DNA of 64,000 nt from Thioalbus denitrificans (GTDB taxonomy: Bacteria > Pseudomonadota > Gammaproteobacteria > DSM-26407), in contig NZ_QPJY01000001.1 in the NCBI RefSeq assembly GCF_003337735.1, forward strand, positions 846,175 to 910,174, given 5' to 3'. This document shows, piece by piece, positions 8,171-43,553 of the stretch. The stretch's first letter is position 1. Each line of letters opens with the position of its first letter. The notes beneath the pieces were generated by a model. That model did not search any database. It saw only the letters and a program-made list of their open reading frames with translations, and was not told the origin of the DNA. The position numbers were made by a program, and so were the translations under genes.

Positions 8171-9034
8171 ATGTTTCAGCAATCGTCACGCCCGCGCGGC
8201 GCTTCGGCGTTTGGTCTGCCGGTCCGGGTGGCGGGCCTTCTGCTCCTGTTGCTGTGGACGACCGCGGCGTCGGCCGCGGGGGCGGAGTACTATCGTCTCG
8301 GCGTTCTGCCCCTGCAGAGCCCCACCAAGCTGGCGGGCATGTTCTCGCCCCTGGTGGGACTGATGGAGCAGGAACTGGATCATCCCGTGCAGTTCGTCAC
8401 CGCGCCGAGCTTTTCCGCCTTCATGGACCGGGTGGCGCGGCGCGAGTACCACGTCATCTACCTCAATCCCCTTCTGTACACCGAGGCCCGGGCGGCCGGT
8501 TACCGGGCCGTGGCCAAGGTGGCGGGGGAGCCCTTCACCGGCATCCTGGTGGTGCGCGGGGACAGCCCCGTCCGGACGCTGGACCCTGAGCGGCTGCCCC
8601 GCGGTCTGCGCATCGGATTCCCCGATCCTGGCGCCTATGCCGCCACGGTCATGACCCGCCAGTACATGGAATCGCTCGGCATTCATGTGGACGAGTGGTT
8701 CCAGGTGGAGTACTTCGGCTCCCAGGACTCGGCGCTGCTGGCGCTCCATGCGGGCCTGGTGGACATCATCGGCACTTGGCGCCCCTCCTTCCGCTCCATG
8801 CCCGAGGCCGTGCGCTCGGATCTGCGCATCATCGCCGAGACGCCGCCCCAGCCGCAGATGCCCGTGGCAGTGCGTGACGATGTCCCGGATGCCGAGGTGC
8901 AACAACTGGTGGCGCTGCTCACCGGGCTGGGGGAGCGGACCGAGGGGCGCGTGGCGCTCGAGCGCCTGGGGTTCCTGCAGGGCTTCGACCCGGCGACGGA
9001 CAGCGAGTACCGGGAGGTGCGCCATGAGCGCTGA
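8171..9034 (+). CDS. PhnD-like periplasmic solute-binding protein
   Basis: A 287-residue secreted protein of the phosphate/phosphonate-binding PhnD family. The signal peptide is a hydrophobic core (VAGLLLLLLW) ending at AASA-AGA. The mature part starts YYRLGVLPLQSP and has the family pattern YHVIYLNPLLYTEA and IGFPDPGAYAATVM. No transporter permease or ATPase is nearby. Instead the gene overlaps a histidine kinase by 11 bp, so it probably presents a bound anion to that kinase, as the fused PhnD-like domain does in the tetrathionate sensor TtrS. The ligand is unknown; a sulfur oxyanion is inferred from the downstream operon. The start is the ATG just before the signal peptide. Confidence 0.85.
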   Translation: MFQQSSRPRGASAFGLPVRVAGLLLLLLWTTAASAAGAEYYRLGVLPLQSPTKLAGMFSPLVGLMEQELDHPVQFVTAPSFSAFMDRVARREYHVIYLNPLLYTEARAAGYRAVAKVAGEPFTGILVVRGDSPVRTLDPERLPRGLRIGFPDPGAYAATVMTRQYMESLGIHVDEWFQVEYFGSQDSALLALHAGLVDIIGTWRPSFRSMPEAVRSDLRIIAETPPQPQMPVAVRDDVPDAEVQQLVALLTGLGERTEGRVALERLGFLQGFDPATDSEYREVRHER

Positions 9035-10496
9035 GACGGCGGCGCGCGGGCTGGAGACCCCGGGCGGGCTCGCGCGGCCCGCGCCGCGGATATCGCTGTT
9101 CCGGACCCTGCGCTTCCGGCTGATTCTCTCGGTGGCCCTCGTGCACGTGTGCCTGATGGGGGCCTTCACCTGGGAGTCGGTCCAGGAACAGTCCCAGAGC
9201 GTGCGGGAGCAGCTCTACAACCGGGGCGTGTCGCTGTCCAACCTGATGGTCGTGGCGAGCACCAATGCGGTACTGGCCGAGGACCTGGCGGCGCTGGCGG
9301 AAGTCACCGAGCGGGTCCACCGGCAGCCCGACGTGCGTTACGGCGAGATCGTGGACGCCCGCGGGCAGGTGCTGGCGAGTACCGAGCCGCGCAGCATCGG
9401 CCGTCCGGTCGGGGCGATGGTCGCGGCAAGCGAGCGTTTCCCGCTGCCTGGCGACGACCAGCTGCTGGACCTGCGGGAAGAGGTGACGGTGGCCGGCCGT
9501 CGGGTGGGTACGGTGCTGCTGGGCCTGTCCACGGAGAGCCTCGATGCGGCCCTGCGCAGTACCCGCAACGAGGGGCTGCTGTTCATCCTGTTAGCGCTGT
9601 TCATCGGCAGCGTGGCCGCCTGGGGGCTGTCGCTGGCGCTGACCCGCCATCTCCACGAGCTCACCCGGGCGGCGGGCCAGATCAGCGCCGGGGATTTCAG
9701 CGTCCGGGTGGCGCCGGGGGCACGTGACGAGTCGGGGGTGCTGGCCCGCGCCTTCAACGCCATGGCCGTGTCCCTGGAGCGGACCGCCCGCCGTGCCCGG
9801 CAGGAGCACGAGAAGCGCACCGAGGCCGAGCGCCTGGCCTGCGTGGGCGAGCTCTCCGCCAGCATCGCCCACGAGATCCGCAATCCGCTGGCTGCCATCA
9901 TCAACTCCGTAAGCCTGCTCGACCGGGAGGACCTGGAGCGCGAGGACCGTGGCGAGGTGGTCGACATCATCAACAGCGAGACCCGGCGCCTGCAGCGGAC
10001 CCTGAACGATTTTCTCGATTTTGCCCGCATCCGCGAACCGCAGCTGGCGGTGGTGGACCTCTGTCCGCTGGTGGAGGAGGTGGCGCGGCTGGTGGAGCGC
10101 GATCCCCAGTCCCAGGGACGGGTGCGGTTCCGCCTGCGCTTTCTCGACGGTTCCTGCCGGGCGCACATCGATGCCGACCAGATGCGCCAGGTGCTCTGGA
10201 ACCTGATGCTCAACGCCGTCCAGGCCATGTCCGGGGGCGGCGAGGTGACGGTGCGGGTGGAGTGCGGCGACGGCCGGGTGCAGGTGAGCGTCGTGGACGC
10301 CGGCTGCGGCATGGAGGAGGCATTCGTGGGGAAGGTCACCAAGCCCTTCGTCACCGGCCGCCGGAGCGGCACCGGCCTGGGGCTCGCCATCGCCCAGCGG
10401 GTGCTGATGCAGCACGGCAGCGGGTTGAGCATCGTCAGCCAGCCCGGGGTGGGCACCGAGGTGGGGTTCGAGCTGGGCGCGGTGGGAGCGGAGTGA
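9024..10496 (+). CDS. Membrane sensor histidine kinase
   Basis: A 490-residue kinase. Transmembrane segments are near residues 31-50 and 195-216, flanking a periplasmic domain of about 145 residues. A HAMP linker follows, then the HisKA box IAHEIRNPLAA (His283) and an HATPase domain with N (NLMLNAVQAM), G1 (DAGCGM) and G2 (GTGLGLAIA) boxes. It overlaps the binding-protein gene upstream by 11 bp and the response-regulator start downstream (TGATG), indicating translational coupling. It likely autophosphorylates in response to the periplasmic partner and passes phosphate to the NtrC-type regulator. Confidence 0.93.
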   Translation: MSAETAARGLETPGGLARPAPRISLFRTLRFRLILSVALVHVCLMGAFTWESVQEQSQSVREQLYNRGVSLSNLMVVASTNAVLAEDLAALAEVTERVHRQPDVRYGEIVDARGQVLASTEPRSIGRPVGAMVAASERFPLPGDDQLLDLREEVTVAGRRVGTVLLGLSTESLDAALRSTRNEGLLFILLALFIGSVAAWGLSLALTRHLHELTRAAGQISAGDFSVRVAPGARDESGVLARAFNAMAVSLERTARRARQEHEKRTEAERLACVGELSASIAHEIRNPLAAIINSVSLLDREDLEREDRGEVVDIINSETRRLQRTLNDFLDFARIREPQLAVVDLCPLVEEVARLVERDPQSQGRVRFRLRFLDGSCRAHIDADQMRQVLWNLMLNAVQAMSGGGEVTVRVECGDGRVQVSVVDAGCGMEEAFVGKVTKPFVTGRRSGTGLGLAIAQRVLMQHGSGLSIVSQPGVGTEVGFELGAVGAE

Positions 10497-11848
10497 TGGC
10501 GGTCATCCTCATCGTCGACGACGAATTCTCCATCCGCAAGACCCTGGGGCTGCTGCTCAAGGCCGAGGGCCACACGGTGCACGAGGCCGGAAGCCTGGCC
10601 GAGGCGAAGGAGCGGCTGGAGCAGGCACCGGCGGATCTCGTCATGACCGATCTGCGCCTGGGCGAGGATGACGGCATCGCGGTGCTGGAGCATCTGCGCG
10701 CCAGCGGCAGCGACGCGGAGAGCATCGTCATGACCGCCTACGGCACCATCGAGTCGGCGGTGGAGGCCATGCGGCTGGGCGCCTATGACTATCTGACCAA
10801 GCCCATCAATCCCGCCGAGCTGGTGATACGGGTCACCAAGGTGCTGGAGCGCAAGAGTCTGCGCGAGGAGGTCACCCGCCTGCGCGGCGCCCTCGACGGG
10901 CGGCATGTCCTCGCCCACGTGGTGGCCGAGAGCCCCCAGATGCAGCGGGTCCTGCAGGTCATCGAGCGCATCCGCGATCGGGATCTGCCGGTGCTCATCA
11001 CCGGCGAAACCGGCACCGGCAAGGAGGTGGTGGCGCGCGCCGTCCACGCCACCAGTACCCGGGCCGCCGCGCCGTTCCTGGCCATCAACTGTGCCACCCT
11101 GCCGGAAGACCTGCTCGACTCGGAACTGTTCGGCAGCCTGAAGGGCGCCTTCACCGGGGCGGTCGCCAACCGCAAGGGGCTGTTCCGGGAGGCCCATGGC
11201 GGCACCCTGTTCCTGGACGAGATCGGCGACATCAGCCCGCGCCTGCAGGCCAAGCTGCTGCGCGTGCTGCAGGAGGGCGAGGTGCGGCCGGTGGGGGGCG
11301 ATACCCCGACCCGGGTGGACGTGCGCATCGTCGCGGCCACCAACCGCGACCTCGATCGCATGGTGGAGGCGGGCGAGTTCCGCAGCGACCTGCTGTTCCG
11401 CCTCAACGTCCTGCCCATCGCCCTGCCGCCGTTGCGCGAGCGGCGCGAGGACATCCTGCCCTTGGTGCGGCGGGTGCTCGAGCGGTTGCGGCGGGAGCCG
11501 GGACGGGACAACCTGGGCCTCACCCCCCCCGCCCAGGAGAAGCTGCTGCGCTACGACTGGCCCGGCAACGTGCGGCAGCTGGAGAACATCATCGAGCGCA
11601 GCTTCGCCCTTCATCCCGGGCCGGTGCTCGATGCCCACGAAATCCTCATCACCCCCGCCGGTGTCACCCAGCCGACAGCCGGGCCCGAGGCGGGTCCGGA
11701 GTTGCCGGCCGATATCCCCCTCGCCGAGGTGGAGTCGCTGCACATCCGCCGGGTGCTGGAGCGCCAGGGAGGCAACCAGGTGGCGGCCGCCCGGGTGCTC
11801 GGCATCAGCCGTTCCACCCTGCGCCGCAAACTGGGCCAGAACGGCTGA
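10496..11848 (+). CDS. NtrC-family sigma-54-dependent response regulator
   Basis: A 450-residue activator. The receiver has acidic pair DD8-9 and phospho-acceptor Asp52 in MTDLRL. The AAA+ domain has Walker A GETGTGKE (170-177), the sigma-54 contact loop GAFTGA (217-222) and GGTLFLDEIGD. A Fis-type helix-turn-helix ends the protein (NQVAAARVLGISRSTLRRKL). Its start overlaps the kinase stop. It is followed by an upstream-site-like palindrome and a canonical -24/-12 promoter, so its target is very probably the sulfur operon just downstream. Confidence 0.95.
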   Translation: MAVILIVDDEFSIRKTLGLLLKAEGHTVHEAGSLAEAKERLEQAPADLVMTDLRLGEDDGIAVLEHLRASGSDAESIVMTAYGTIESAVEAMRLGAYDYLTKPINPAELVIRVTKVLERKSLREEVTRLRGALDGRHVLAHVVAESPQMQRVLQVIERIRDRDLPVLITGETGTGKEVVARAVHATSTRAAAPFLAINCATLPEDLLDSELFGSLKGAFTGAVANRKGLFREAHGGTLFLDEIGDISPRLQAKLLRVLQEGEVRPVGGDTPTRVDVRIVAATNRDLDRMVEAGEFRSDLLFRLNVLPIALPPLRERREDILPLVRRVLERLRREPGRDNLGLTPPAQEKLLRYDWPGNVRQLENIIERSFALHPGPVLDAHEILITPAGVTQPTAGPEAGPELPADIPLAEVESLHIRRVLERQGGNQVAAARVLGISRSTLRRKLGQNG

Positions 11849-11883
11849 CTCATTCTGCGACACCCTTGTCTTATCCTGAGGCA

Positions 11884-11909: not shown

Positions 11910-11919
11910 AGAGCCAACC

Positions 11920-12054
11920 TCGAAGGCACGAAGGTCACGAAGCGGTTTTTTCTCTATCTGGATGCCCCTCAGAAGCCTGGCGATGTTAAGCCAAGGTGCT
12001 CATTTTCTTATCGATAACCCCATGTTTCTTCGTGTTCTTCGTGCCTTCGTGGTG
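11920..12054. repeat. Iterated-word inverted-pair element (CGAAGGCACGAAGG family)
   Basis: The left end (11920-11943) repeats the word CGAAGGCA/CGAAGGTCA. The right end (12026-12054) is the inverted form TTCGTG...CCTTCGTGGTGG. The 135-bp unit lies between the enhancer-like palindrome and the sigma-54 promoter, and the same family recurs near 31.9 kb and 43.4 kb. Confidence 0.7.
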
Positions 12055-12081: not shown

Positions 12082-12099
12082 TTGGCACTGGCCTTGCAA
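12082..12099 (+). promoter_or_regulatory. Sigma-54 (-24/-12) promoter of the sulfur operon
   Basis: TTGGCAC-TGGCC-TTGCAA matches the RpoN consensus TGGCACG-N4-TTGCA at all but one position. The diagnostic GG (12084-12085) and GC (12096-12097) start positions are exactly 12 bases apart. Transcription would begin near 12109, 32 bp before the first gene. Confidence 0.85.
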
Positions 12100-12140
12100 C
12101 TGCCTGGGGAAAAGAAATCAACATCCAGGTGGAGGCCTGC

Positions 12141-12632
12141 ATGGAGCTGTTCAAGAAGACCCTCGATCCGGTCGTGGCGCTGGTGATTATCGCCGTGCTC
12201 GACATTTTCATGTTCCTCACCATCGGGGCATGGACGGTGGGGGGCGGCGAAACCATGATGACCGGGCTCATTGCCCAGTTGTTCCTCGGCGACGAGCTCT
12301 CCCGCATTCCCTTCTGGGAACTGGTGTTCCCGCCCGATCCCGGCTACTGGAAGATCTACATCAGCCTGGGGATGCTGTTCGGCGCCCTGGTGGGCGCGAT
12401 CATGAGCAAGGAGTTCTACTGGCGCTTCCCGCGCCACCTCTCCGAGTGGGTCATGATCACCGTGGGCGGACTGCTCATGGGCATCGGCATCCGGCTCGCC
12501 TTCGTCTGCAACGTGAGCACCTTCTTCGGGCTGACCCCGGAGATGAACCTCGGCGGCTACCTCGCGGTGAGCGGCATCCTCGCCGGTGCCTGGGTGGGTT
12601 CGCTCGTCTACAAGAAAGTGCTGGAGGGTTGA
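12141..12632 (+). CDS. YeeE/YedE-family sulfur transporter, first half
   Basis: A 163-residue inner-membrane protein, the N-terminal half of a YeeE/YedE permease (the family includes thiosulfate importers). About four hydrophobic segments are visible, with VGGLLMGIGIRLAFVCN near the end carrying the conserved cysteine region. The ATG at 12141 follows AGGTGGAGG. It is the first gene after the sigma-54 promoter and is separated by only two bases from the second half-transporter. The split arrangement is known in the family (PmpA/PmpB type). Confidence 0.85.
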   Translation: MELFKKTLDPVVALVIIAVLDIFMFLTIGAWTVGGGETMMTGLIAQLFLGDELSRIPFWELVFPPDPGYWKIYISLGMLFGALVGAIMSKEFYWRFPRHLSEWVMITVGGLLMGIGIRLAFVCNVSTFFGLTPEMNLGGYLAVSGILAGAWVGSLVYKKVLEG

Positions 12633-12634
12633 CC

Positions 12635-13285
12635 ATGTCCCCCGTCGGAGAGTGCATCACCGCCTTCATCTTCGGTTCCGTGGTGGGCCTGCTGGTGCAG
12701 CGCTCGCGCTTCTGCAACACCGCCGCGCTGCGCGACGCCATGCTGTTCAAGACCTACCGCAACACCAAGGCGCTGCTGGTGGCCATGATGATCCTGACCC
12801 TCGGCTTCACCACCTTCCTCACCTTCGGCGACGGCAAGCCGCTGCATTTCGACGTGGGGCTGAACCAGGTGATGGGGCTGTTTCTGTTCGGCATCGGCAT
12901 GGTGCTCGCCGGGGCCTGCACCGTCTCCACCTGGGTCAAGGCGGGAGAGGGCAACATCGGCGCCGTGTGGGCGCTGCTGTTCACCTTCATCGGCATGTTC
13001 CTGTTCTCACTACTCTGGTCCTTCTCCTACTGGCCGCCGGCGCCGGGGACCATGAGCGGCGAGCCCAACCTGGCCGGCCTGCAGCTGGGCTACGCCAACG
13101 CCGCCACCCTGCAGGAGAAGACCGGCATCCCGGCGGTGGTGTTCGGACTGGTGCAGTTCGCGGTGCTGCTGGCCATCTACCGCGCCATCCGCCGCAAGGA
13201 AACCGCCGCGGAGCACGCCAAGGCTCCGGCCGGTCAGGGCGCGGGCGCCGCCTCGGCGGGCGCCGTGGCCAGCCGCAACGACTGA
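12635..13285 (+). CDS. YeeE/YedE-family sulfur transporter, second half
   Basis: A 216-residue membrane protein complementing the gene before it. It has the RSRFCNTAALRDA segment and the GIGMVLAGACTVSTW motif, the conserved cysteines proposed to relay sulfur species in the family. A cytoplasmic Ala-rich tail ends it. Start ATG is two bases after the preceding stop. Sulfur imported here could be passed to the TusA-like protein encoded next. Confidence 0.87.
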   Translation: MSPVGECITAFIFGSVVGLLVQRSRFCNTAALRDAMLFKTYRNTKALLVAMMILTLGFTTFLTFGDGKPLHFDVGLNQVMGLFLFGIGMVLAGACTVSTWVKAGEGNIGAVWALLFTFIGMFLFSLLWSFSYWPPAPGTMSGEPNLAGLQLGYANAATLQEKTGIPAVVFGLVQFAVLLAIYRAIRRKETAAEHAKAPAGQGAGAASAGAVASRND

Positions 13286-13322: not shown

Positions 13323-13634
13323 ATGGGACTGTTCGGACGCAAGAAGAGCAATGACGGCGGTGATGTCCAGCCCCAGGGCAGCATCACCCTGGAGGATGGC
13401 AGCAGCGTGAGCATCGCGCAGGTGGTGGACTGTATCGGCGACTCCTGCCCGCGCCCGCAGCTGATGACCAAGAAGGCGGTGGGCAACGCCGCCTCCGGCG
13501 ATGTCATCGAGGTGCGCATCGACAACCCCACCTCCATGGAGGCCATTCCGCCCATGATGCCCGACCTCGGCGCCCGCCACCTCGGCACGGTGAAGTCGGG
13601 GCGCTACTGGAGCGTGGTGGTGGCGAAGAACTAG
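13323..13634 (+). CDS. TusA-family sulfur carrier protein
   Basis: A 103-residue protein with a variable N-terminal extension of about 30 residues and then a TusA/SirA domain. The persulfide cysteine lies in the CPRP motif (IGDSCPRPQLMTKKAV). The C-terminal half is the usual beta strand pattern ending YWSVVVAKN. It probably accepts sulfur from the YedE pair and hands it to DsrE-like or enzyme partners in the cytoplasm. An AAAGAGGAG ribosome site precedes it. Confidence 0.9.
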   Translation: MGLFGRKKSNDGGDVQPQGSITLEDGSSVSIAQVVDCIGDSCPRPQLMTKKAVGNAASGDVIEVRIDNPTSMEAIPPMMPDLGARHLGTVKSGRYWSVVVAKN

Positions 13635-13653
13635 CGCGGGTCCTTTCGTGTTT

Positions 13654-13796
13654 ACCACGGAGGCACGGAGAACACGGAGAAGACGGGGAAAACTCTCCCT
13701 GCGCCAGGCTGACGCCGTAGCGCCCGGTTCCAGGGCCAGCCCTGCATTCTCCATGTGGAACAGCGCCTCCGTGACCTCCGTGTCTCCGTGGTGAAA
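13654..13796. repeat. Iterated-word inverted-pair element (ACCACGGAGGCACGGAG family)
   Basis: The left end (13654-13680) iterates CACGGAG; the right end (13764-13796) carries the inverted CCTCCGTG...TCTCCGTGGT. It fills most of the 206-bp gap between tusA and the next small gene, inside the presumed operon. Confidence 0.7.
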
Positions 13797-13840: not shown

Positions 13841-14056
13841 ATGGGAACTGGCCATCTGCAGATGTGGATCTTCTCGGCGCTGGTGACGCTGCTCACCATC
13901 GGCGGCATCGCCTACATCTTCATCGCCCAGCCGGAGTACCTGCGCGCCGATCGCGACGGGGTTCCGTACTTCAGTCCCAAGGTGGAGAACCCGATCACCG
14001 GGGAAGCCATCGACATGGGCACCCTGGTGCGCCACTACCGCGGAGAGACGCCATGA
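13841..14056 (+). CDS. Small single-span membrane protein, function unknown
   Basis: A 71-residue protein with one N-terminal transmembrane helix (about residues 8-28, FSALVTLLTIGGIAYIF) and a polar tail with GVPYFSPKVENPITGEAIDM. An AAGGAA ribosome site supports the ATG at 13841 over a TTG at 13817. Its stop overlaps the ATG of the 30-residue gene that follows (ATGA). Not recognised; its position in the sulfur operon suggests an accessory subunit of the transporter. Confidence 0.7.
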   Translation: MGTGHLQMWIFSALVTLLTIGGIAYIFIAQPEYLRADRDGVPYFSPKVENPITGEAIDMGTLVRHYRGETP

Positions 14057-14145
14057 GCCTCGATCTGGAAACCCTGGTCCAGCTGGTGGCGTTCGGGGTG
14101 GCGTTCTACGCCATGTACATCAACTTCACCAAGGATCCCTTCTGA
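14053..14145 (+). CDS. 30-residue membrane microprotein
   Basis: Starts within the stop of the preceding gene (ATGA) and encodes a 30-residue peptide with one hydrophobic stretch (LVQLVAFGVAFYAMYI) ending NFTKDPF. The four-base overlap with one gene and the 13-bp gap to the next argue for real translation. It is too short for family assignment. Confidence 0.55.
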   Translation: MSLDLETLVQLVAFGVAFYAMYINFTKDPF

Positions 14146-14158
14146 GCCGGAGGTCGTC

Positions 14159-14437
14159 ATGAACACCCGTCAGATGCTGATGTTCTGTGCCGGCAGCCTG
14201 GCCCTGAGTCTCGGCGCCGCCGCCGTCCTCTTTCCCTTCGCCTCGGTGAGCAGGGAGACCCTGCAGGCGTCGCGCAGCGCCCAGCCGGTGGAGGCCCTGG
14301 GCGAGGTGGACCTGGGGCCCGATTTCGGCACGGTGCCGGTGACCGAGCTGGTGGGGTACTACATCGAGAACCCGCCGGCGGCGCCCGAGCCGGGCGTGGC
14401 GGCCGCGCCGAAGCGGCAGCAGTTCGGCGGCTGCTAG
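14159..14437 (+). CDS. Small membrane-anchored or secreted protein, function unknown
   Basis: A 92-residue protein with a hydrophobic N-terminus (GSLALSLGAAAVLFPF) and an acidic middle ending VGYYIENPP, then a Pro/Ala-rich tail finishing QFGGC. CCGGAGG lies upstream of the ATG. Its last base overlaps the GTG of the rhodanese-like gene. No family was recognised. Confidence 0.65.
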   Translation: MNTRQMLMFCAGSLALSLGAAAVLFPFASVSRETLQASRSAQPVEALGEVDLGPDFGTVPVTELVGYYIENPPAAPEPGVAAAPKRQQFGGC

Positions 14438-15390
14438 TGGGGAGAAGCCTCCACCACGGCCTGCTGCCGGCACTGTTGCTGGCCGTCTCCGGCCCAGTCG
14501 GCGCGGAGCTGGTGTACGTGGACGCGGTGCCCGACCCGGCCGCTGTCGTCGTGGTGGATACCCGGCCCGAACCGGCCTGCCTCGAACGCAGCCTGGATCA
14601 GGCCCGCTGCCTGCCGACCGAGACGTTCCTGGGTCCGCAACGGCGGCTGGCGAGTTTCCGCGACATCGTCTGGGTCCTGGGTACGGCCGGCCTGCGCGGC
14701 GATGAAACGGTGCTGGTGGCGGGAGCCGACCCGGTGCGCCGTGATGCCGTCGCGGCGCTGCTGCACCTGGCCGGTCAGCACCGCGTCGAGGTCCTGATCC
14801 CGCCCCTGCCGCAATATCTCGGGACGCCCGGGACGGCTGCGGGTACCGGACGGCCCCGGGGTGTCCTGCGGGACCCGATCTATACCGGGCAGCTGCGCGA
14901 GGAGCTCATGGTGCTGCGCGACGAGCTGGCACGGCGCCTCACCGCACCGGGCGCCCCCCGGCTGCTGGACGGACGGCCCGTGGGCGAGTACTGGGGCGAG
15001 CGGCTGCGGGCCCGGCGCGGCGGTCACCTGCCCGGTGCCGAGCTGGCGCCGGCCGCCGAGTTGCGGGCCGCGCTGGCACGGGGGGAGAAGCCCCTGGCGG
15101 CCGCGGGCGAGGTGGTGGCCTACGGCCATGAGCCGCTCACCGGGCTCGCCTACCTGACCCTGCTGCGGGCCGGATACGGCATCGACGCCCGACTCTACCC
15201 GGGCGGCTGGCGCGAGTGGGCCGATGACGGCCGCCTGCCCGCCGATGCGGTGGCCTACCGTGAGCCGGAACCGGTGGAGACATCCGGCGCCCCGGGCGCC
15301 GGACCCTGGGCCCAGGCCCTGCTGACCCTCGCTGCGGCGCTGGCCGCCGCCCTGTTCGGATACCTGCTCGGAAGAAGGAGGATTACCTGA
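14437..15390 (+). CDS. Membrane-anchored tandem rhodanese-like protein lacking the active cysteine
   Basis: A 317-residue exported protein with an N-terminal signal segment, two rhodanese-like domains and a C-terminal transmembrane anchor (ALLTLAAALAAALFGYLLG) followed by RRR. The second domain has LLDGRPVGEYWG and RGGHLPGAEL, but the active loop reads AYGHEPLTG, with glycine where rhodaneses have the catalytic cysteine. It probably binds or presents a sulfur compound without transferring it. The start is a GTG overlapping the previous stop; its own stop overlaps the next ATG (TGATG). Confidence 0.72.
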   Translation: MGRSLHHGLLPALLLAVSGPVGAELVYVDAVPDPAAVVVVDTRPEPACLERSLDQARCLPTETFLGPQRRLASFRDIVWVLGTAGLRGDETVLVAGADPVRRDAVAALLHLAGQHRVEVLIPPLPQYLGTPGTAAGTGRPRGVLRDPIYTGQLREELMVLRDELARRLTAPGAPRLLDGRPVGEYWGERLRARRGGHLPGAELAPAAELRAALARGEKPLAAAGEVVAYGHEPLTGLAYLTLLRAGYGIDARLYPGGWREWADDGRLPADAVAYREPEPVETSGAPGAGPWAQALLTLAAALAAALFGYLLGRRRIT

Positions 15391-15680
15391 TGGACCTGCT
15401 TTTCATCGTCTCCACGCCGGATGCGTCACGGGTGCTGCTGCCCCTGGCCGCCGCCTGCAAGCGGCGCGGCGCCCGCTGGGGGTGTTTCTTCACCAACGAC
15501 GGTGTGGAGGCCCTGCGTGACGAACAGGTGGTGCGGGCCATGTCCTGCGCCGATACCGCGGTGGCCTGCGAGCACTCCTGGGAGCGTTTCATGGGCGAGG
15601 CCGCCTGCCCGGTGAACCTGGGCAGCCAGACCAACAACAGCGCCCTGGTGGGCGAGGCGCGCAAGGTCATCAGCCTATAG
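15390..15680 (+). CDS. DsrE-family protein
   Basis: A 96-residue cytoplasmic protein with the DsrE/DsrF-like Rossmann start LLFIVSTPDA and the pattern ALRDEQVVRAM. Cysteines are found at WGCFF, MSCAD, VACEH and AACPV. Members of this family receive or hold persulfide sulfur next to TusA proteins. The start is coupled to the preceding stop (TGATG). A degenerate foldback element begins immediately after its stop. Confidence 0.75.
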   Translation: MDLLFIVSTPDASRVLLPLAAACKRRGARWGCFFTNDGVEALRDEQVVRAMSCADTAVACEHSWERFMGEAACPVNLGSQTNNSALVGEARKVISL

Positions 15681-15791
15681 GGCGCTGCTCCACACCTGAA
15701 GGCCCGTCCCGAGCTCTCCGGACACGCCGGGGCAAGGCGCTGCGCGCTGGCGACCGCTCGCCGAATGTGTCTCCAGGGGTGGAACAGCACG
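15681..15791 (-). mobile_element. Degenerate, shortened copy of the 270-bp foldback element
   Basis: Read on the minus strand it starts GTGCTGTTCCACCCCTGGAG, followed by ACACATTCGGCGAG. This parallels the left end of the copies at 43165 and 48228, and it ends with the inverted form. At about 111 bp it lacks the middle of the element. It separates the two DsrE-like genes. Confidence 0.65.
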
Positions 15792-15813
15792 CGAACACAA
15801 GGGAGAAGCCTAC

Positions 15814-16089
15814 GTGAGCGAGAAGAAGAACATCCTGGTGCTGGCGCGCCGCGACCACACCGAGGCCATGCGGGTGGCCGCCGGTCTCACCATCTTCGGC
15901 CACACCGTGCGCCTGGTGTTCATGGGCGGCCCGGTTGCGGACACGCCGGAGAACGCCGAGCAGGCGGAGACGCTGGAGCTGTGCGACATCGAGCCGGAGA
16001 CCACCGTGCCGGGACAGGAGCTGCCCATGCTGGATCCGCGGGCCCTGTCACTGGCCATGGTCCGCTCCGACTGCGTGCTGAGCATCTAG
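15814..16089 (+). CDS. Second DsrE-like protein
   Basis: A 91-residue protein starting at GTG 15814 behind AAGGGAGAAG. The first strand ILVLARRDHTEA and the segment HTVRLVFMGG fit a DsrE-type fold. Cysteines occur only at ELCDIEP and near the C-terminus (SDCVLSI), a position used by the sulfur-relay proteins TusB/DsrH. It is part of the sulfur operon, flanked on both sides by repeat elements. Confidence 0.65.
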   Translation: MSEKKNILVLARRDHTEAMRVAAGLTIFGHTVRLVFMGGPVADTPENAEQAETLELCDIEPETTVPGQELPMLDPRALSLAMVRSDCVLSI

Positions 16090-16541: not shown

Positions 16542-17480
16542 ATGAGCAAACTGCAGCGTTTCATCACCACCGGCGTGGCCGTGGCCGCCATCGGTCTCAG
16601 CGGTACGGCCTGGGCCGCGGCCCAGCCGCTGGTGGACGTGGCGTGGATCAAGGCCAACTCCTGCAACGACGGCGTCCGTGTCCTCGATATCCGCAACGCC
16701 CTGGACGGCGGTTCCCAGACCGACTACCTGCGCGGCCATATCCCCTGCGCGGTGCACACCGACTACCTGAAGGACGGCTGGCGCGTGGCGGACAAGAACA
16801 AGACCCCGGGCCAGCTGCCGCCCGCCGATCAGCTGGAGAAGCTCATCGGCGGCCTGGGCATCGGCAACGATACCCAGGTGGTGATCGTCCCGGCGGGCAA
16901 GGATGCGCTCGACATGGGCAGCGCCACGCGGATGTTCTGGACCTTCAAGGTGCTGGGGCACGACAACGTCTCCATCCTCAACGGCGGCCTGGCGGCCTAC
17001 ACGAAGGATGAGAAGAACCCGCTGGAAAAGGGCAACAACAAGCCCGAGGCCGTTGCCTTCAAGGCCAACCTGCGCCAGGAGATGCTGGTGGGCAAGGAGG
17101 AGATGAAGGCGGCCATGGAGAAGGGCGTGACCCTGGTGGACAACCGCCCCAACGACCAGTACATCGGCATCAACCGTCACCCGAAGGCCAAGCGCAACGG
17201 CACCATCCCCGGCGCCAGGAACCTGCCGGAGAACTGGATGACCGAGAACAACGGCGGCACGTTCCGCGACGCCGAGACGCTGAAGAAGCTCTACGCGGTG
17301 GCCGAGGTTCCCACCGAGGGCGAGGTGATCACCTTCTGCAACACCGGTCACTGGGCGTCGCTGGGCTGGTTCGCGGAGCACGAGCTGCTGGGCAACCAGC
17401 AGGCGAAGCTCTATGACGGTTCCATGGTGGAGTGGAGCGCCGACGAGTCCCTGCCCATGGAGCAGAAGGTCAACTACTGA
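16542..17480 (+). CDS. Periplasmic thiosulfate sulfurtransferase (two-domain rhodanese)
   Basis: A 312-residue exported rhodanese. The signal peptide ends TAWA-AAQP. The N-terminal inactive domain has VLDIRNALDGG and YLRGHIPCAVH. The C-terminal catalytic domain has VDNRPNDQYIG, GTIPGARNLP and the active cysteine loop FCNTGHWAS. It transfers a sulfane sulfur from thiosulfate or a related donor to an acceptor in the periplasm, complementing the inactive membrane rhodanese in the same operon. An AGGAGG ribosome site precedes the ATG. Confidence 0.9.
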   Translation: MSKLQRFITTGVAVAAIGLSGTAWAAAQPLVDVAWIKANSCNDGVRVLDIRNALDGGSQTDYLRGHIPCAVHTDYLKDGWRVADKNKTPGQLPPADQLEKLIGGLGIGNDTQVVIVPAGKDALDMGSATRMFWTFKVLGHDNVSILNGGLAAYTKDEKNPLEKGNNKPEAVAFKANLRQEMLVGKEEMKAAMEKGVTLVDNRPNDQYIGINRHPKAKRNGTIPGARNLPENWMTENNGGTFRDAETLKKLYAVAEVPTEGEVITFCNTGHWASLGWFAEHELLGNQQAKLYDGSMVEWSADESLPMEQKVNY

Positions 17481-31920: not shown

Positions 31921-32192
31921 ACCACGAAGGCACGAAGGACACGAACACAGAAAAGACTGAATGGACAGGATTCACAGGATTAACCGGATTTCAGTACGGA
32001 ATCTTCGGCATGAATGTGGCCGATCAAGATTGCCGGTCCGTCGGTAGCCATTGAACACCGTTCATGCAGGGGCTTGGGAACACGATCGGGAATCCATGCC
32101 CTCACTGAAACGACCACTCCATCCTGTCAATCCTGTCAATCCTGTCTATTTCTTCCTTTGCCATTCTTCGTGTCCTTCGTGCCTTCGTGGTT
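31921..32192. repeat. Nested iterated-word inverted-pair elements
   Basis: The outer pair ACCACGAAGGCACGAAGGAC (from 31921) is mirrored by CTTCGTGCCTTCGTGGT (to about 32192). Inside lies a second, unrelated pair: GACAGGATTCACAGGATTAA (near 31962) and its inverted form with three ATCCTGTC units (near 32121-32148). The whole 272-bp unit fills the gap upstream of hisC. Confidence 0.75.
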
Positions 32193-43447: not shown

Positions 43448-43553
43448 ACCACGAAGGCACGAAGGCACGAAGGGCACGAAGGGCACGAAGGGCACGAAGA
43501 ATGGACGCATATCAAACTGCAGATTACTTCGTATTCTTCGGGCCTTCGTGGTG
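43448..43553. repeat. Iterated-word inverted-pair element (ACGAAGGCACGAAGG family)
   Basis: The left arm (43448-43500) has six CACGAAGG-like words in a row; the right arm (43528-43553) is TTCGTATTCTTCGGGCCTTC followed by GTGGTG. It directly follows a broken left end of the foldback element. Confidence 0.75.

Follow-up and report, generated by a model that had tools for sequence, protein, structure and literature searches.

Three-component systems for arsenic oxyanions (AioXSR, ArxXSR and ArrXSR) share a PhnD-like periplasmic protein that is encoded together with a histidine kinase and a regulator. In AioXSR, whose ligand is arsenite, the regulator controls aioBA from a binding site upstream of an RpoN promoter (PMC5908839, PMC7533571), and the binding pocket of AioX, ArrX and ArxX includes a cysteine (PMC5908839). 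PhnD-like domains also sense thiosulfate or tetrathionate in ThsS and TtrS (PMC5408782); signalling by a histidine kinase is common to both types, but in ThsS and TtrS the PhnD-like domain lies within the kinase itself, and the paper describing them makes no mention of sigma-54. Sigma-54 activators of sulfur genes have been described as well. TspS/TspR of Acidithiobacillus caldus, reported as two components, controls the sox cluster via sigma-54 and the site TGTCCCAAATGGGACA (PMC6335251), while FisR of Cupriavidus and Acinetobacter is a single-component, sulfide/persulfide-responsive activator of a sulfide-oxidation operon (PMC7315123). For the PmpA/PmpB and SoxT/TsuA transporters of the YeeE family the described control consists of ArsR-type repressors or none, and pmpAB is not thiosulfate-regulated in H. 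denitrificans (PMC11582611); the yeeE-yedE-pdo2 operon of A. baumannii is under the repressor BigR (PMC7315123). How sulfur oxidisers sense external sulfur, and by what route it reaches the cytoplasm, have been described as poorly understood (PMC11582611).

Here, we analyzed a locus within a window of 64 kb (the whole stretch of DNA under study) in which three overlapping genes, X, S and R, are encoded together upstream of a candidate promoter and a sulfur operon (Table 1). The best explanation of its sequence is that an AioXSR/ArrXSR-like three-component system drives a PmpAB (split YeeE)-TusA-rhodanese operon via sigma-54. Compared with the AioXSR-type systems, the target would be a sulfur import and relay operon, and X shows remote sequence similarity only and lacks the pocket cysteine. 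From TspS/TspR the locus differs in its YeeE-TusA target and in its activator site. With PmpA/PmpB and the SoxT/TsuA transporters of the YeeE family it has in common a pair of half-length YeeE proteins (PMC11582611), accompanied here by a TusA-like protein, and PF04143 is divided between them as in the split PmpA/PmpB layout. The first-pass annotation had called RpoN control of a YedE-TusA operon unfamiliar, which was borne out in part: sigma-54 control of sulfur genes is already known (TspSR-sox, FisR-sqr/pdo) and the sensing module belongs to the AioXSR/ArrXSR type, whereas X-S-R or RpoN control of a PmpAB/YeeE/YedE-TusA operon was not found in the open-access literature searched. The locus offers a concrete candidate sensor, activator site and promoter before a likely sulfur-import operon, and it ties this operon to the X-S-R class that senses arsenic.

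Table 1. Features of the X-S-R locus and the downstream operon (positions in the window)
Feature	Position	Strand	Evidence
X, PhnD/PtxB/ArrX-type periplasmic oxyanion-binding protein with signal peptide, proposed sensor	8171..9034	+	Pfam PF12974 1.5e-48; ATG at 8171
S, membrane histidine kinase: weak sCache match, HAMP, HisKA, HATPase_c	9024..10496	+	Pfam; conserved SIAHEIRNP H-box
R, NtrC-type response regulator: receiver, AAA+ sigma-54 activator with GAFTGA, Fis-type HTH	10496..11848	+	Pfam Sigma54_activat 5.5e-70, Response_reg 2.3e-26, HTH_8 9e-14
Candidate upstream activator sequence CTCATTCTGCGACACCCTTGTCTTATCCTG, consensus CTCATTTTGCTACAGCCCTGTTGCAAAATA	11849..11878	+	matrix from 13 other loci
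Dispersed inverted-repeat element, 137 bp, 26-nt arms, 85 nt between	11917..12053		repeat search
Predicted sigma-54 -24/-12 promoter TTGGCAC-TGGCC-TTGCAA	12082..12099	+	consensus, conservation in relatives; predicted +1 12109
YeeE/YedE C-terminal half, PmpA-like, first operon gene	12141..12632	+	PF04143 positions 171-310, 2e-21
YeeE/YedE N-terminal half, PmpB-like	12635..13285	+	PF04143 positions 1-161, 2.4e-24
TusA-like sulfur carrier	13323..13634	+	PF01206 1.8e-16
Three small conserved proteins (13841-14056, 14053-14145, 14159-14437)	13841..14437	+	no Pfam match; order kept in relatives for first and third
Rhodanese-domain protein	14437..15390	+	PF00581 1.4e-9; order conserved
Two small conserved proteins (15390-15680, 15814-16089), DsrE-like by position/size only	15390..16089	+	no Pfam hit over cut-off; order conserved
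Two-domain rhodanese, mercaptopyruvate sulfurtransferase-like	16542..17480	+	PF00581 4.4e-25; NF008557 3.5e-33, below cut-off

Promoter sequence and genome context

Positions 12082-12099 read TTGGCACTGGCCTTGCAA, in which the GG (12084-12085) and the GC (12096-12097) are spaced by exactly 12 bases. This agrees with the first-pass annotation, which had described a near-perfect sigma-54 motif with this spacing in front of the sulfur operon, and we found the stretch to be the sole instance of TGGCAC-N5-TTGC with zero mismatches in the window. Setting C12097 as -12 placed the predicted transcription start at 12109, the same coordinate as had been proposed before, 32 bp upstream of the ATG of the first operon gene; from the GC of the -12 element to this ATG there are 43 bases. 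The gene for a GAFTGA-type activator that had been noted upstream is present as well (R in Table 1), carries the GAFTGA motif and ends 233 bp before the promoter motif.

For evaluation of the motif we compared its frequency with chance. The whole genome of 4.14 Mb contains 22 perfect matches to TGGCAC-N5-TTGC, a frequency from which about 0.3 perfect matches are expected per 64 kb and about 8e-4 for this strand of the 292-bp gap. When at most one mismatch was allowed, the pattern was not more frequent in the whole genome than a reversed-pattern control. Because near-matches are no commoner than this control, the consensus by itself is weak evidence for a promoter at 12082-12099, and a consensus match alone was rejected as proof.

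The genome contains a single copy of rpoN. Of the remaining 21 perfect sites, four lie 31-67 bp upstream of nifH, nifE, an iscA-type gene and nifV, and NifH, NifE and NifV exceed their NCBIfam cut-offs; nif genes are classic RpoN targets. Since one rpoN is present and four perfect sites precede nif-type genes, the consensus appears to be meaningful in this genome, and the position of these sites shows, as far as sequence comparison goes, that TGGCAC-N5-TTGC fits the RpoN encoded here. The nif cluster with these four -24/-12 sites is located at about 390-414 kb of contig C2 of the window's own genome (G000).

The downstream operon is predicted to serve sulfur import and relay, with the split YeeE/YedE pair, TusA, rhodaneses and small conserved proteins. 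No sox genes were observed beside the promoter, where the neighbours are the YeeE halves, TusA and the rhodaneses. In the genome both dsrA and soxB score above cut-off (soxB on a different contig from the window) and no arsenite oxidase was found over cut-off, for which reason the organism is apparently a sulfur oxidiser.

Conservation of the promoter and of an upstream element

Next, we investigated 80 relatives of the first operon gene. We defined a promoter score as the weighted agreement with TGGCAC-N5-TTGC (maximum 19.5) within 200 bp upstream and considered sites with a score of at least 17 as strong. A strong -24/-12 site was observed in all 16 loci with an adjacent X-S-R, one of which (L002) belongs to the window's own genus, at 38-66 bp before the ATG, and in 4 of the 64 others. 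The association of X-S-R with a strong site has a Fisher value of 1.8e-13, to be read with the fact that related sequences are not independent, and of 1.2e-12 once 8 loci with less than 1.5 kb of upstream DNA are dropped. In one of the four others (L076) the X gene is found about 6 kb downstream, and a search of the whole genomes of 10 relatives without the upstream genes detected a close X (61 percent) only in the genome of L076. If L076 is grouped with the X-S-R loci, strong sites occur in 17 of 17 loci compared to 3 of 63. As a score of at least 17 also occurs in 5.6 percent of 200-bp windows drawn at random from these loci, the 3 of 63 strong sites without X-S-R are background by this comparison. 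The three sites belong to L026, L044 and L055, where they lie about 110 bp upstream; they were treated as background or as a different palindrome, and a genome search revealed no X homolog in the three genomes. Conservation in related genomes, which had been suggested earlier as a check of the motif, was thus found in the 16 relatives with adjacent X-S-R and in the one with X downstream, and it raises the motif at 12082-12099 far above chance.

In a tree of the first gene the X-S-R loci fall into two separate supported clades, the first mainly betaproteobacterial (Thiobacillus, Sulfuricellaceae) and the second gammaproteobacterial (Sedimenticola, the window), while relatives without X-S-R fall between and within the two groups. 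According to this tree the association of X-S-R with the promoter probably had few independent origins. The layout of the window is shared by Sedimenticola selenatireducens DSM 17993 (L005), which can be cultured, and an additional genome (L154) repeats the whole layout, a 98-bp spacing between the element described below and the promoter included. In L155 the X-S-R genes follow the operon, which begins with a different, porin-like gene, and the -24/-12 site lies before this gene. The X-S-R neighbourhood includes such a porin-like gene on the reverse strand of both L155 (2007-3197) and L156 (1822-3117); in L156, X-S-R occurs with a rhodanese and the porin-like gene, and no YeeE genes were found within 9.8 kb. 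The closest named relative of the operon, from Thiorhodococcus mannitoliphagus (L003), is without X-S-R, and the motif found there is no more than a degenerate one, TGGCATACCGCTTTC.

A candidate activator-binding element is positioned at the R stop codon or just 3' of it in the X-S-R loci, and just after the stop in the window. We trained a matrix on 13 loci, leaving out the window and its congener, and obtained a score of 18.4 for the element in the window, compared to 8.2 for the next-best separate site on both strands of the 64 kb. In a leave-one-out analysis the expected site outscored all others of its locus in 12 of the 13 cases, L009 being the exception. The distance from the CAT of the element to the GG of the -24 box is 98-100 bp in most loci, L154 included, and 121-123 bp in L076 and L078. 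L076 retains the element though R is not encoded beside it, so that, judged from this locus, the element does not owe its presence to the end of the R coding sequence. The consensus forms a near-perfect dyad (TTTTGCTACA / TGTTGCAAAA) and the L154 site has a long dyad. In most loci, the dyad symmetry of the single sites is no greater than that of shuffles, and the elements are weakly palindromic; for this reason we dropped the palindrome claim for individual elements and kept it for the consensus and for L154.

Proposed mechanism and alternative explanations

From these data, 12082-12099 is very probably the sigma-54 promoter of the sulfur operon, controlled by R of the adjacent X-S-R. In the proposed mechanism, X would bind a sulfur oxyanion such as thiosulfate in the periplasm, as operon and genome content suggest, and the X-ligand complex would activate the membrane kinase S, by analogy with AioXSR. 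S would then phosphorylate the NtrC-type regulator R, a step for which both proteins have the domains, and from conservation and the near-fixed spacing we infer that phosphorylated R binds at 11849-11878. There it would remodel RNA polymerase-RpoN at 12082-12099, for which the domains, rpoN and the promoter are in place, and transcription starting near 12109 would switch on sulfur import and transfer. The catalytic residues and the HTH of R are conserved among relatives. The sigma-54 contact loop of R is GSFTSA and not GAFTGA in a betaproteobacterial group (L024, L040, L041, L046, L047 and L068), and further variants occur in L004 (GAYTGA), L011 (GAFTSA) and L013 (GSYTGA).

The ligand is the part of this mechanism with the most serious alternative. 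By profile, X is nearest to ArrX (1.3e-16) and also matches PhnD, PtxB and AioX. The AF2 model of X (pLDDT 89) aligns with the closed structures of PtxB, PhnD, ArrX and AioX over 241-251 residues (Z 24.5-28.8, rmsd 2.2-3.4), with about 18-20 percent identity to these proteins on the structural alignment, and as modelled the fold of X belongs to this group. These similarities would also suit a true sigma-54 promoter whose X-S-R senses a non-sulfur oxyanion (arsenate, phosphite or another), the operon relieving that stress and not serving sulfur oxidation. We consider this unlikely, because the entire downstream operon is sulfur-related, dsrA and soxB but no arsenite oxidase scored over cut-off in the genome, and X-S-R travels with the sulfur operon in two clades. 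In addition, the pocket cysteine of AioX, ArrX and ArxX is absent from X of the window, which is cysteine-free beyond residue 45 of the translated stretch, and it is likewise missing from X of most relatives; X was not filed as an arsenic sensor because of this missing cysteine. Hence the ligand of X is, on the present comparison, more likely than not a sulfur compound. With somewhat less confidence, though still leaning towards it, we propose a new family of sulfur-oxyanion X-S-R systems among sulfur oxidisers of the Beta- and Gammaproteobacteria. The periplasmic binding protein of these systems, a stand-alone protein, would sense thiosulfate or a related oxyanion and turn on sulfane-sulfur import through sigma-54. 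A search for AioX relatives on plasmids gave remote matches only, and the one inspected (from Vibrio) was not part of an X-S-R operon.

A second alternative is that the sigma-54 promoter responds chiefly to a different enhancer-binding protein, such as NtrC or a persulfide sensor of the FisR type, with R acting elsewhere. FisR and TspR are indeed further sigma-54 activators of sulfur operons (PMC7315123, PMC6335251), but the presence of the promoter tracks the R cassette even when the cassette is downstream of the operon, the TspR site TGTCCCAAATGGGACA has no match in the window at up to 3 mismatches, and the first half of the element is rare, with 4 occurrences in the genome at up to one mismatch and a perfect one only at 11849-11878. 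Control by a different activator is therefore highly improbable compared to control by R. Finally, that the motif arose by chance in an AT-rich gap, the operon being driven by sigma-70 or by read-through from the activator gene, is likewise highly improbable: the 22 perfect matches in the genome and the near-matches at control frequency would allow it, but 17 of 17 relatives with X-S-R keep the site at a near-fixed position, and no sigma-70-like promoter was found in the gap upstream of the first operon gene. A search of this gap for a terminator also found none.

A dispersed repeat between the element and the promoter

In the window, the distance between the activator element and the -24 box amounts to 233 bp, and in the congener (L002) to 244 bp. 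The spacing of 233 instead of 98 bp results from the intervening 137-bp inverted repeat at 11917-12053, to which the additional 135 bp can be ascribed. Activation of the enhancer type works over such distances, and the 137-bp repeat, as an insertion that arose naturally between the element and the promoter, represents a test case for the tolerance of spacing. Dispersed inverted repeats of the CACGAAG/CACGGAG type were also observed at 13651-13795, 31931-32181 and 43466-43542, with a length of about 140 bp in the two that were measured, and the window contains 16 matches to TTCGTGNNNTTCGTG compared to 3.2 in shuffles. Besides the copy between the activator site and the promoter, another copy is located between tusA and the next gene.
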